Virus record (IMG/VR): IMGVR_UViG_3300025917_000061
Span: 1 to 22,165 of that record
Strand: one strand, 5' to 3'
DNA: 22,165 bases
From: a virus
This document shows positions 18,324-22,165 of the stretch, one piece after another (position 1 is the stretch's first letter; each line of letters begins with the position of its first letter). Under the pieces are notes generated by a model, which was given only the letters and a program-made list of their open reading frames with translations, did not search any database and had not been told where the DNA came from. A program made the position numbers and the translations under genes.

Positions 18324-19343
18324 CTAGGTGGCCGGGTTGCTGTCGTAGAAGCGCCAGTTGAAGAGCGGGTTGACCTGCGTCAACTCACCCATCCAGCCAA
18401 TGAACTGCGCGATGGCGTCCTTATCGATGGGCATCTGGCCCTCGCCGTCGAACAGGTTGTCGAAGTTTCTGTTCGGGTGGTACCGCAGCCGGAAGCTGTC
18501 GGTGTTCAGCCCAAAGGTCGTGTTTGCTGGCATGTTGGAGCCAATGCCGCCGTCGAGGACGATCTCGGCCCGCTTGCCGCCACCGATATACTCGACTGAA
18601 GAAAAGCCCAGCTTGCCCAGAGAAGTCTCGTTGGTCTGCCGCTGGATGGCGACAGTCGCCGCGTCGTAGGCCGCGTAATGCTCGGGCGACATGATCAGCA
18701 GGTCGGCGTAGTCCTTGCCGCGAGACTGCTTGGTCATGATGTAGTTGAGCATCGGGCGGATAGTCGTTGACAGCACCTGCGTGCCGATAGCCGTCGCCAT
18801 CGTCTGCGCATCGTACGCCTTGGTCTGCCAGATCGCGTTGGTGCGATCGATGCCGCCGTACAATCCGCTGTTGGTGACGATCGGCACCGCAGTCGCGAGG
18901 CCGGTGAGTTGCTTGCCGCCGTTGGCGGTGCCGTCGGAGTACAGCGCGGCGTCCATGACATCTTCCAGCGAGCGCTCGGCGGCGTCGATGTAGCTGTCGT
19001 AGACGTCCATCAACTGGGCCTCGCCCTCGTTGTTCAGGATTTCCTGCATCGAAAGGATGACAGGAACGACGACCATCTTCGGGTCGAAGTAGGCGTCGTT
19101 GAACAGGTCGATGGCGGGGTTCAGCAACTGGTCGTAGCCGCTGTACCACTGCGCGACTTGCTTGGCGATCTGGAGTGTCTGTCGAATGCGCGGACCCGAA
19201 TATGTCTGCCAAAGGCCCTTACGCCGCATGACGGCGAGCAGAGCGTTGTTCGCCGACACGAGATCTTGGTATCCGCTCGAACGATCTTCGAGCGCCATCG
19301 AAAGTATCTGCTGATAAGCAGCATTAGCGTTGATGTTCGGCAT
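18324..19343 (-). CDS. Major capsid protein
   Basis: This 339-residue protein is the size of a typical HK97-fold coat protein. It has a helical N-terminus (A-A-Y-Q-Q-I-L-S-M-A-L-E-D), then M-V-V-V-P-V-I-L-S-M-Q-E and a long helix D-A-A-E-R-S-L-E-D-V-M-D-A-A-L-Y. The phrase S-D-G-T-A-N-G-G-K-Q-L-T-G-L-A with a following Y-G-G-I-D-R-T is a hallmark of a common phage coat-protein family. The end (Q-F-I-G-W-M-G-E-L-T) is also typical. GAGGA precedes the ATG. It directly follows the scaffold-like gene, as in many podoviruses. It should form the icosahedral shell. Confidence 0.9.
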   Translation of the reverse strand: MPNINANAAYQQILSMALEDRSSGYQDLVSANNALLAVMRRKGLWQTYSGPRIRQTLQIAKQVAQWYSGYDQLLNPAIDLFNDAYFDPKMVVVPVILSMQEILNNEGEAQLMDVYDSYIDAAERSLEDVMDAALYSDGTANGGKQLTGLATAVPIVTNSGLYGGIDRTNAIWQTKAYDAQTMATAIGTQVLSTTIRPMLNYIMTKQSRGKDYADLLIMSPEHYAAYDAATVAIQRQTNETSLGKLGFSSVEYIGGGKRAEIVLDGGIGSNMPANTTFGLNTDSFRLRYHPNRNFDNLFDGEGQMPIDKDAIAQFIGWMGELTQVNPLFNWRFYDSNPAT

Positions 19344-19359: not shown

Positions 19360-20607
19360 TTAGACGCTGCCATTCACCCGCTTTATTGCGTTTGAAATGG
19401 CTTCGCGTCGGCCAATCGGTTTATCGCTTTTCCGCCGCTGCCCTTCTGAGGGGCCAGCATCTGGAGCGCCGGAAATCGACTTGTCTGATCGGGTCTGAGC
19501 CGGTGTGCCGTTGCGGGTCTGAGCCGCTCGTCCTGAAGCGGGGCGGAGCCTTTCGGCTCTCAGGTACGCGGTCTCGAGGTCGAAACCGAATTTAAGTTCC
19601 TGTTCTATCAGGTCGCCCAATTCGTCAAACCTCGGATGCGTGTCAGCGAACTGATCCACGGCTGACCGTGTTTGACCGAATACTTTCTCAGTCTGCATTG
19701 CTTGGACGTTTTGCGCAAGAGACTGCACGATCTGGTGCAGTTGGCCGATCTGATGCGTCTGCGCCTGTTGCGCGTTGCCCTGCTGGATGAGCCGGTGCTG
19801 ATCGGGGTTCTGCTGGAGAATATGATAGGCGACGTCGCGCAGCGTCAGCTTGTGCCCCTCGTTCGTCCGCAGGTTCAGGTTGCTGATGATGACGTCGAGA
19901 CCACCGACGACATCCTGCCGCAGCTTCTGCTCCATGCCGACGTAGTTCGTGAGCGCCCGCGCCAGCGTCGTGCCATGCTGGCTCGCCATCTGGTGGAAAT
20001 GGCGTATGGTGTTCATCTCCTCATGGTCGCCACGGTACTGCCGGTATGCGCCATCGAACTCCTTCGCCATTCGATAGACCTCGCCGCGCACTCCTTCTGG
20101 TGCCGACGCCCACTCCTGCTTACCGCGCTCGGAAAATCGCGGTGGCGGCTCTCTATAAGGCGCATTTTCGGGAAGCGGCGCGGATGGTTTACCGGCGTCT
20201 GGCGCCTGACGCGCTGATTGACGCCCCGCCTCCGCCTGATCCGGCGCCTTCGCAAAGCGGCCACCCTCCCGATACCGCTCCGGCTTCTTCGCCTCCGGCT
20301 TCTCGCCCTTTTCCTTCTCCATAGTCTCGGGCGGGTTGTTGTCGCCCATGCCGCGCTTGACCACTTTCTTATGCTCGGGCTGCTCCTCGACGTTGGCCCG
20401 CTCGAAAGCCTTCTGGATGGCCTCACGGCGACTGGGCGGACGTCCCTTGCCGCCCTCCAGATCTCCGACCGGCGCGTCCGGCGCCTGTGGCCCAACCGGC
20501 TTGGGTGCGCTGGCCGGGTTCTGGTCGATCACCACCTCGCCAGTGGACGGTGCCGGTGCTGACGGTGCTGACGCCGGTGCTGGAGGCGCAATGTTGGTGT
20601 CGGACAT
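19360..20607 (-). CDS. Scaffolding-like protein upstream of the capsid gene
   Basis: This 415-residue acidic/basic helical protein has a disordered Pro/Ala-rich N-terminus. A charged stretch follows (K-K-V-V-K-R-G-M-G-D-N-N-P-P-E-T), with helices at 150-340 (including H-Q-M-A-S-Q-H and Q-I-G-Q-L-H-Q-I-V-Q-S-L-A-Q-N-V). The C-terminal end is basic. Size, composition and place immediately before the coat gene fit a capsid scaffold. The motif R-R-E-A-I-x-x-A-x-x-R occurs at residues 60-70 and again near the C-terminus, where scaffold proteins often bind the coat protein. GGGAG precedes the ATG, and a perfect palindrome lies upstream at 20637-20650. Confidence 0.8.
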   Translation of the reverse strand: MSDTNIAPPAPASAPSAPAPSTGEVVIDQNPASAPKPVGPQAPDAPVGDLEGGKGRPPSRREAIQKAFERANVEEQPEHKKVVKRGMGDNNPPETMEKEKGEKPEAKKPERYREGGRFAKAPDQAEAGRQSARQAPDAGKPSAPLPENAPYREPPPRFSERGKQEWASAPEGVRGEVYRMAKEFDGAYRQYRGDHEEMNTIRHFHQMASQHGTTLARALTNYVGMEQKLRQDVVGGLDVIISNLNLRTNEGHKLTLRDVAYHILQQNPDQHRLIQQGNAQQAQTHQIGQLHQIVQSLAQNVQAMQTEKVFGQTRSAVDQFADTHPRFDELGDLIEQELKFGFDLETAYLRAERLRPASGRAAQTRNGTPAQTRSDKSISGAPDAGPSEGQRRKSDKPIGRREAISNAIKRVNGSV

Positions 20608-20636
20608 TTGAAACTCCCTGCCGGTCTGAGCGGCTG

Positions 20637-20650
20637 TTGATCTAGATCAA
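20637..20650. promoter_or_regulatory. Perfect 14-bp palindrome resembling an FNR/FixK box
   Basis: TTGATCTAGATCAA is identical on both strands. It matches the FNR-type consensus TTGAT-N4-ATCAA and the alphaproteobacterial FixK-type TTGA-N6-TCAA. It overlaps the stop codon of the small gene at 20817-20647 and is centred about 37 bases before the scaffold start codon. No convincing -35/-10 pair is visible beside it, so control by such a regulator is only a possibility. Confidence 0.5.
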
Positions 20651-20817
20651 TTCCCGTTTCGTACTTTGCGGATCGCCTTCCTGATCGTGTCGCGTCGCTT
20701 GTCGGCGCGGTAGAAGTCCCGCGCCACCGACTGGCTGATGCCAGCCTTGGCGGCGAACCCGGCGTCATGCGCCGCAATCCGCATGAACTTCTTCTGTCTA
20801 GGCGAGGTGCTTGGCAC
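20647..20817 (-). CDS. Small GTG-start phage protein (56 aa)
   Basis: The frame reads M-P-S-T-S-P-R-Q-K-K-F-M-R-I-A-A-H-D-A-G-F, then A-A-K-A-G-I-S-Q-S-V-A-R-D-F-Y-R-A-D-K, and ends R-R-D-T-I-R-K-A-I-R-K-V-R-N-G-N. The pattern S-P-x-Q-x-x-F-M, F-A-x-K-x-G-I-x-Q-x-V-A and F-x-x-A-D-K is that of a widespread family of short phage proteins of unknown role. The GTG at 20817 keeps this whole pattern; the later ATG at 20784 would cut it. A purine-rich AAGGCAGG precedes the GTG. It overlaps the previous gene by 20 bases. Its end carries the RR-x-x-I motif also seen in the scaffold. Confidence 0.72.
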   Translation of the reverse strand: MPSTSPRQKKFMRIAAHDAGFAAKAGISQSVARDFYRADKRRDTIRKAIRKVRNGN

Positions 20818-21124
20818 GATGCCCTGCCTTATAGCGCTCGAGCGCCTTCTTCAGCGTTGCTCGTCTGGCCTCTTTTTCTTTCCGGCCCGCCGTCGCGCGT
20901 TCTTTGGGCCTGAACTTCTCAGTTCCGACCTCGATGAGGCCGTGCGCTCTGCCGACGGCGCGGAAGGTGGCCTTTGAAGTGTAAAACCGCCCATCCACCT
21001 GCTCAGTCGGCTCCATAGTGTCGCTAATGACATAGGGCACCGCCAGATCACTTCGCGCTGGGGCGATTTGCCTTTTGTCGATGCGCCACTTTCCCGGCGC
21101 CACTTCGGTCAGCTTCGCTGTCAT
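20798..21124 (-). CDS. Small basic phage protein upstream of scaffold
   Basis: The ATG at 21124 is chosen because the family normally starts M-T-x-K-L; a TTG at 21142 in the same frame is an alternative. The 108-residue protein reads L-T-E-V-A-P-G-K-W-R, then V-P-Y-V-I-S-D-T-M-E-P-T-E-Q-V-D-G-R-F-Y-T-S-K-A-T-F-R-A-V-G-R. This central phrase recurs in a phage protein family located near capsid genes, with unknown function. The C-terminus is strongly basic and holds R-R-A-T-L-K-K-A-L-E-R. The gene overlaps the preceding gene by 77 bases and the next by 20. The family resemblance is from memory. Confidence 0.66.
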   Translation of the reverse strand: MTAKLTEVAPGKWRIDKRQIAPARSDLAVPYVISDTMEPTEQVDGRFYTSKATFRAVGRAHGLIEVGTEKFRPKERATAGRKEKEARRATLKKALERYKAGHRAKHLA

Positions 21125-21311
21125 TTGTTTCTCGTGAAACAAGCGGCGGCGCCACGAAGGTCACCGGCAGTCCGTAGACCGCGACCTTGGTCACCGCCAC
21201 GCCATACTTGTTCGCCGCCTCCGTCACCGGCATTCCAAGACCCGGCTTGGTTGCTGTGACATCGACAACAGGCATGCCGCCCGCTGCTACCGTAACGACC
21301 GGCATGCCCAT
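21048..21311 (-). CDS. Small phage protein with repeated M-P-V-V/T phrases
   Basis: The first 55 residues are built from repeats: G-M-P-V-V-T-V-A-A, G-M-P-V-V-D-V-T-A-T, G-M-P-V-T-E-A-A, then V-A-V-T-K-V-A and G-L-P-V-T-F-V. The repeated G-x-P-V-x-x-V unit looks like a small beta structure and is found in short proteins of related phages, function unknown. AGGAG precedes the ATG at 21311 with good spacing. The last 30 residues (rich in Asn, Asp, Lys and Arg) overlap the next gene by 77 bases in another frame, so a shorter functional core is likely. Confidence 0.68.
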   Translation of the reverse strand: MGMPVVTVAAGGMPVVDVTATKPGLGMPVTEAANKYGVAVTKVAVYGLPVTFVAPPLVSRETNDSEADRSGAGKVAHRQKANRPSAK

Positions 21312-21320
21312 GTCTGTCTC

Positions 21321-21491
21321 CTACTTCTTCGATCGCTTGTCGTCCGGCTTCTGATCGTCCGGCTTCTGATCCTCCGGCACCGCTCCCGATCCCGGCGGCT
21401 CGTTGATGCTCACCGGGGTGTTGGTGGTGTCCGGTGTTTTCGGCGCCTCCGTCTTAGGCTCCGGCGTCTTATGCTCTGGCTCCCTTGCCAT
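21321..21491 (-). CDS. 56-aa Pro/Lys/Asp-rich linker protein
   Basis: The frame from the ATG at 21491 gives M-A-R-E-P-E-H-K-T-P-E-P-K-T-E-A-P-K-T-P and ends D-Q-K-P-D-D-Q-K-P-D-D-K-R-S-K-K. It is supported by GAGGAG seven bases upstream, a stop at 21321-21323, and the next gene's AGGAG immediately behind. The product is disordered and strongly charged, with the repeat D-Q-K-P-D. It carries V-S-I-N-E-P-P-G, a phrase also present twice in the preceding TIG protein. It overlaps that gene by 23 bases. A tether or linker in the head region is plausible; nothing more can be said. Confidence 0.66.
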   Translation of the reverse strand: MAREPEHKTPEPKTEAPKTPDTTNTPVSINEPPGSGAVPEDQKPDDQKPDDKRSKK

Positions 21492-21885
21492 GTCTCGCTC
21501 CTCTGGTTGTCGGCGCAGCGAACGTGAACGGCAGTTCGTTGCTCATTTTGCTGCCGTTCTTGACGCTGACCTGCACGGTGTCTGGCCCATGCCAGACGTC
21601 CATGTTGATGCCGGTCGAGAGCGTTCCGTCGGCGTTGAGCGTCGTCGGCTCGTCCTGCCCGGCAAACACGATAACGCTCTGGGCGAACAGGTTGGTGCCG
21701 GAGACGAACATCGTGAAGCTGGGTTCGCCCAACACTGCGCCGTCCGGTGACAGCGAAGTGATGGTCGGCTCGGGGATTGCGTCCGGCGGCAAATCGTCAA
21801 CCGACGGCGGCTCGTTGATGGAGGCAGGGAGGACCATCGTCGTCCGGCCCGGCCCCGTCGGCTCATTGATGCTTTTGATGCTCAT
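21469..21885 (-). CDS. IPT/TIG (Ig-like) domain protein
   Basis: This 138-residue protein begins with two short Pro-rich stretches, each containing S-I-N-E-P (residues 5-9 and 22-26). An Ig-like domain follows from about residue 38: P-E-P-T-I-T-S-L-S-P-D-G-A, F-T-M-F-V-S-G-T-N-L-F, S-V-I-V-F-A-G, then H-G-P-D-T-V-Q-V-S-V-K-N and a closing L-P-F-T-F-A. This is the layout of IPT/TIG folds used in phage head or tail decorations. The last 14 residues are basic. The start overlaps the previous stop as ATGA at 21882-21885. It may decorate the capsid surface, but the site in the virion is unknown. Confidence 0.74.
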   Translation of the reverse strand: MSIKSINEPTGPGRTTMVLPASINEPPSVDDLPPDAIPEPTITSLSPDGAVLGEPSFTMFVSGTNLFAQSVIVFAGQDEPTTLNADGTLSTGINMDVWHGPDTVQVSVKNGSKMSNELPFTFAAPTTRGARHGKGARA

Positions 21886-22154
21886 GTGAACGCCCAGTTC
21901 GTTGCCGCAGTAGAGTAGGAGCCGGTCGTCACAATAACCGGCAAGTTTCCTGCGCTGCTCCTCCTCGGCGCATTCAGCACCTTGAGTTGCGTGGCGCTGT
22001 TGAACTGCGTCGTCTGCGGCACGCCGTTGACGCTGACCACGGACTGCGGCGTGAAGCCGGTGCCGTTAACCGTGAGCGGCCCTGAGCCGCCAACTCCTAC
22101 CTGCGTTGCCGGTACGAGGCCGGTGATGGTGGCGTTCACCGCAGGTGCCGCCAT
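21882..22154 (-). CDS. IPT/TIG (Ig-like) domain protein, start near the window edge
   Basis: The visible 90 residues form one TIG domain: A-T-I-T-G-L-V-P-A-T-Q-V-G-V-G-G, L-T-V-N-G-T-G-F-T-P, S-V-V-S-V-N-G-V-P and A-T-Q-L-K-V-L. They end in N-L-P-V-I-V-T-T-G and N-W-A-F-T. The ATG at 22154 is only 11 bases from the edge and no ribosome-binding site fits in that space. The frame is open to the edge, so the protein might begin further upstream. It is coupled to a second TIG protein by ATGA. Such tandem Ig-like proteins are often found as optional virion surface parts. Confidence 0.7.
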   Translation of the reverse strand: MAAPAVNATITGLVPATQVGVGGSGPLTVNGTGFTPQSVVSVNGVPQTTQFNSATQLKVLNAPRRSSAGNLPVIVTTGSYSTAATNWAFT

Positions 22155-22165
22155 CGTGGCGTGGC

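Follow-up and report, generated by a model that had tools for sequence, protein, structure and literature searches.

Coat-binding ends are already known from several scaffolding proteins. The element is C terminal in P22, HK97, phiBB1, and the herpesviruses, and a recent account places such ends at one end (PMC12005531); in phi29 the element is N terminal (PMC6813328). In SPP1, density of the scaffold gp11 touches the amino end of the spine helix of the coat protein gp13 (D109 to Q112) along with the coat N-terminal helix, the gp13 changes D109N and P110A impair assembly, and the two hooks of a gp11 dimer link two coat subunits (PMC6813328). Docking inside an HK97-fold shell is also known from encapsulins, where short terminal targeting (cargo-loading) peptides are carried by unrelated cargo proteins (PMC8346489). 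We found no papers on an Mx8 scaffold in the open-access literature, to which our search was limited, and a description elsewhere is possible.

Here, we analyzed a 22,165-base virus record from a soil phage (IMGVR_UViG_3300025917_000061), referred to below in its entirety as the window. Its gene order is that of the p46-p47-p48 region of Mx8 and Mx9, in which the scaffold ends read SLRESLAAA and SVRGSLEAA and the end of the upstream protein reads RRQDIARAIER. The window differs in having RR at motif positions 4 and 5 and in the addition of a 56-aa protein that carries the motif. What differs from the coat-binding ends described above is that the scaffold carries matching elements at both ends.

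Head genes and the repeated motif

All head genes described here lie on the minus strand. The major capsid protein (positions 18324 to 19343; phrog_9953), assigned to the HK97 fold by family match and Foldseek, is 62% identical to the capsid of Rhizobium phage RHph_I3_18 and 32 to 37% identical to those of Mx8, Mx9, BUCT555, and ppBjS10J-1. Immediately upstream of the coat gene, both in the window and at 475 loci, lies the gene that we take to encode the head scaffolding protein (19360 to 20607; 415 aa). This identification rests on position and family: the protein occupies the position of its relative Mx8 p47 and matches phrog_25516 (“virion structural protein,” E value of 1.9e-26), with no Pfam match. 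Farther upstream are a 56-aa gene (20647 to 20817), which matches phrog_16759, and an accessory gene (20798 to 21124) encoding 108 aa from an ATG at 21124 or 114 aa from a TTG at 21142. The accessory protein is a relative of Mx8 p46 by position and profile and matches phrog_21669, a family of unknown function; its fold has no PDB match with an E value below 0.9. The gene order in annotated relatives is portal, small genes, scaffold, coat, and the portal gene of the window lies past the window end. A search of genome contigs for prophage relatives found none.

The pattern RR..[IL]..A..[RK] matches four times in three of these proteins: RRATLKKALER near the C terminus of the upstream protein (M1, 20834 to 20866), RRDTIRKAIRK at the C terminus of the 56-aa protein (M2, 20665 to 20697), and RREAIQKAFER and RREAISNAIKR at residues 60 to 70 and 400 to 410 of the scaffold (M3, 20398 to 20430, and M4, 19378 to 19410; all on the minus strand). 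The initial annotation had reported these 11-mers, and we confirmed each as an exact translation. It had also placed the genes in different frames, which is true only of the 108/114-aa open reading frame (ORF), since the scaffold is in the same frame as the 56-aa ORF (their ends are 1,287 bases apart). Its argument that overlap cannot explain the likeness nevertheless stands: the shared residues mostly use different codons (M3 and M4 have identical codons at two of seven), which rules out both overlap and recent duplication as the source. The annotation had suggested a shuffled-sequence test and a search of the proteome and of relatives as checks, and the motif passed both. Residue shuffles gave 0.012 expected matches against the 4 seen, with at least 4 in 0 of 20,000 shuffles, which excludes chance, and the pattern is absent from the 18 other proteins of the window. 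Because the pattern was derived post hoc from its own matches, we placed the weight on relatives, in which the motif is kept family-wide.

Twin scaffold helices and other carriers

Our initial search for relatives used patterns that contained the motif; capsid-anchored searches were added to counter this bias. Loci collected by capsid were pooled with scaffold-anchored loci, and the scaffold was defined as the long ORF directly upstream of an Mx8-like capsid, so that most were not selected by motif. This gave 379 unique capsid-anchored scaffolds, which fell into 99 clusters when their middle parts were grouped at 60% identity. Motif discovery on the C termini alone returned the consensus [S/D]-[I/L/V/R]-R-[D/E]-A-[L/I]-x-x-A-[hydrophobic], and the resulting profile detected an N-terminal copy within the first 110 residues in 90% of the clusters (P < 0.05), compared to 25% for mid-protein control windows. 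Direct comparison of the N and C copies was significant in 41 of 99 clusters; the copies of locus L236, for example, are KTRRELLSEAFDK (N) and MSRREMLSEAWDE (C). The two copies also covary, with a BLOSUM similarity of 18.6 within the same phage versus 12.8 when partners were swapped within the clade (0 of 2,000 permutations). Among 85 close relatives, the N motif forms a conserved island (identity of 0.69, flanks of 0.51 and 0.30), scaffold R61 is 96% conserved, and R401 is invariant (85/85). Relatives also carry versions such as SLDDSIDRA, SIDEAIAAA, and SIRDSLKAA, which are neutral or acidic. These data establish the repeat, its conservation, and the covariation of its N and C copies.

For structure prediction we used the near relative L077, in which a natural in-frame read runs from scaffold through stop to capsid; stops were read as Gly to join both proteins in one AF2 chain (48 alignment rows). 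Some alignment rows were omitted whole from the structure predictions. The predicted scaffold has a helical core (residues 162 to 356) and two isolated helices (60 to 73 and 402 to 415) within regions of pLDDT below 50, that is, predicted disorder. Almost every relative has, ahead of the C-terminal arm, a conserved segment resembling KSISGAP (residues ~377 to 384 in L077 numbering), with a nearly invariant S379.

Homologs of the upstream gene were found with profiles that omitted the last 30 residues. In 62% of their 84 clusters, the motif occurs within the last 42 residues (P < 0.05), versus 11% for the preceding 42, and genes downstream of the capsid score 3 to 18%. The upstream-gene helix covaries with the scaffold C-helix (1 of 3,000 permutations); its covariation with the scaffold N-helix was not significant. 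In the AF2 model of the 108-aa form, M1 is contained in a C-terminal helix (residues 81 to 99, pLDDT of 92 to 96). The p46-like protein of several clades is extended by an N-terminal Cys-rich, zinc-ribbon-like segment ahead of its conserved DG..+SK/R...NG core (L237, 3313 to 3732; L239, 3364 to 3780; L374, 3333 to 3686; and L477, 3358 to 3741).

The 56-aa protein carries the tag at P < 0.05 in all 14 homologs of the window clade versus 3 of 15 in the Mx8/BUCT555-like clade. M2 was accordingly rejected as a family-wide tag, being missing from most 56-aa relatives in the latter clade, and we infer that it is a clade-specific gain. As a separate observation, the first 49 residues of the 56-aa protein also match the starts of families of large virion structural proteins, phrog_22033 (845 aa) and phrog_25121, and this small domain therefore exists fused to bigger head proteins.

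Charge covariation with the coat protein

Capsid positions 113 to 116 lie close to the N-terminal end of the HK97-fold spine helix, which AF2 places at residues 531 to 557 of the read-through chain, corresponding to capsid residues 108 to 134 (18942 to 19022, minus strand). When mutual information was calculated between helix positions and capsid columns, capsid 112, 113, and 116 were among the top four, coupled to position 5 of both scaffold copies (Arg-5, the second R of the RR). Phylogenetic charge contrasts covered all helix-by-capsid pairs, approximately 2,000 to 2,500. Position 5 against capsid 116 ranked first for the N copy and for the C copy, whether cluster representatives or all sequences were used. 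Capsid 113 ranked second for N, third for C, and first or third for the upstream gene (first among cluster representatives), so that D113 ranks no lower than third for any of the three helices, with the opposite-charge covariation at 113/116 being weaker for the upstream gene than for the scaffold copies. Family-wise permutation P values for the top charge pair are modest (0.006 to 0.054), as the number of independent charge swaps is small. In the same phages, the correlation of C-copy position 5 with capsid 116 was −0.66 to −0.68, versus −0.36 at best among 1,289 columns of the three control proteins (portal, tail, and head closure). The data show that helix and coat covary with opposite charge; that D113 and D116 (codons within 18996 to 19007, minus strand) are salt-bridge partners of Arg-5, and that the amino end of the spine helix is the docking site, is inferred from this coupling and the AF2 model.

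Natural charge swaps follow the same direction. A gain of K or R at capsid 112, 113, or 116 is accompanied by an acidic C-helix in four of five independent gains, including all 20 sequences of those four. L311 combines SLDDSIDRA and SLDEALDRA, along with GIDQAVERA in the upstream protein, with capsid K112-P113-K116. L461 has SIDDAI and SIDEAI with capsid N113 and K116, and L152 and L361 have SLEDEI with capsid K113. There are exceptions: the upstream helix of L461 did not flip, the N-helix in the K113 clade (L152 and L361) is neutral at position 5, L500, L464, L442, and L446 have an acidic C-helix although no basic residue faces it on the capsid, and L306 combines capsid K112 with Arg helices.

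Competing explanations and the proposed coat-docking role

The likeness of the two scaffold copies could reflect pairing instead of a common coat site if the helices bound one another or brought about self-association of the scaffold, such as N-helix with C-helix. Their strong covariation is what such pairing would produce, but both copies tend to keep equal charge at position 5 and flip together, like repelling like, while the opposite charge is found on the capsid, where residue 116 forms the most anticorrelated charge pair with each scaffold helix; we consider this explanation unlikely. We give still less credence to generic helix capping and composition, by which Arg/Ala-rich disordered tails would converge on S-x-R-E-x-x-x-x-A helices without any shared partner. 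Tails of high-GC phages are often rich in R, A, and E, and the mid-protein controls are not silent, yet composition-preserving shuffles fail to reproduce the motif, covariation within a phage beats within-clade permutations, the motifs are conserved islands within variable flanks, and the capsid coupling is specific, being absent from the three control proteins.

Docking on the portal rather than the coat has a precedent, in that P22 scaffold loops occupy portal clefts (PMC12005531), and the genes in question adjoin the portal gene in relatives. No portal column, however, tracks position 5 above background: the best of 564 gave −0.25, whereas capsid 116 reached −0.66 in these phages, and we judge this option very doubtful. 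The least credible of the alternatives is a basic helix that binds DNA or RNA. The initial annotation had offered DNA as a possible target, and the versions in the window are net basic, but basic character is limited to the window clade, the corresponding sites of relatives being occupied by acidic or neutral versions, which leaves that part of its proposal unsupported.

Its other proposed target, the coat protein, is supported by conservation, by within-phage covariation, and by the opposite charges of Arg-5 and capsid 113/116, with binding itself being inferred. We put a probability of roughly 0.77 on the motif being a coat-docking peptide that the two-ended scaffold uses twice and that small accessory proteins have in common with it, a reading for which there is no structural or binding datum. 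The helix probably serves as a common plug-in tag by which proteins dock inside the head as it grows. As proposed, it would be an amphipathic helix of 10 to 13 residues on flexible arms, with the form [S/D]-[I/L/V/R]-R-[D/E]-x-[I/L]-x-x-A-[hydrophobic]. Each helix would pack against the N-terminal end of the spine helix of the coat protein, placing Arg-5 opposite the acidic residues 113 and 116; this physical docking is an inference, and no predicted interface was inspected. Since the scaffold chain has one copy near its N terminus and another at its C terminus, it could hold two coat subunits, a bivalency that is likewise inferred. The p46-like upstream protein may be recruited to the same coat site through its C-terminal helix, as an internal head protein or co-scaffold, and the 56-aa protein of the window clade may also use the tag to enter the growing head, although the fate and role of both small proteins are conjectural.

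The scaffold contact in SPP1 involves the same coat region as that inferred here. Unlike the window scaffold, gp11 has one N-terminal hook per chain, with no twin reported at the other end, and no further SPP1 protein is reported with the same hook. The coat-binding element of P22 gp8, T7 gp9, Sf6, and phi29 gp7 is a single site at one end, and our twin-end test was negative for the T7 gp9, P22 gp8, and Sf6 scaffolds (P values of 0.55 to 0.94), so twin ends were rejected as a general property of scaffolds. Encapsulin peptides are the nearest functional parallel, and the upstream-gene helix resembles them in its terminal position and coat coupling, without binding data. This is resemblance and not membership, with no evidence of descent: encapsulins differ in sequence and pocket details, have enzyme cargo, and lack a scaffold, and our consensus does not meet the published targeting-peptide consensus (PMC8346489). 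A broader proposal, on which we see the odds as even, is that Mx8-like phages have a common address tag: a single receptor patch on the spine helix of the coat would recognize one short helix carried by several otherwise unrelated proteins, namely both ends of the two-handed scaffold and one or two small head proteins. This would be the phage equivalent of cargo loading in encapsulins, and the tag would have spread to further proteins clade by clade.

If the coat-docking reading is true, matched hooks at both scaffold ends would cross-link coat subunits unaided, and a hook common to neighboring small proteins would account for the entry of minor proteins into a phage head. The helix and coat patch would form a testable peptide-receptor pair for which nature supplies charge-swapped versions, offer a tag to load cargo into phage shells, and possibly link scaffold docking to cargo loading in HK97-fold encapsulins.

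Two further features lie at the upstream edge of this region. An 87-aa ORF (21048 to 21311, minus strand) contains repeated G-[M/L]-P-V-x-x-V units (GMPVVTV, GMPVVDV, GMPVTEA, and GLPVTFV), and a 303-aa protein of Microcystis phage Mwe-JY13 (L149, 2343 to 3254) starts similarly. Upstream of the head genes, two adjoining ORFs (21469 to 22163, minus strand) resemble IPT/TIG-type beta-sandwich proteins, with one weak Pfam match (PF01833, E value of 0.013).
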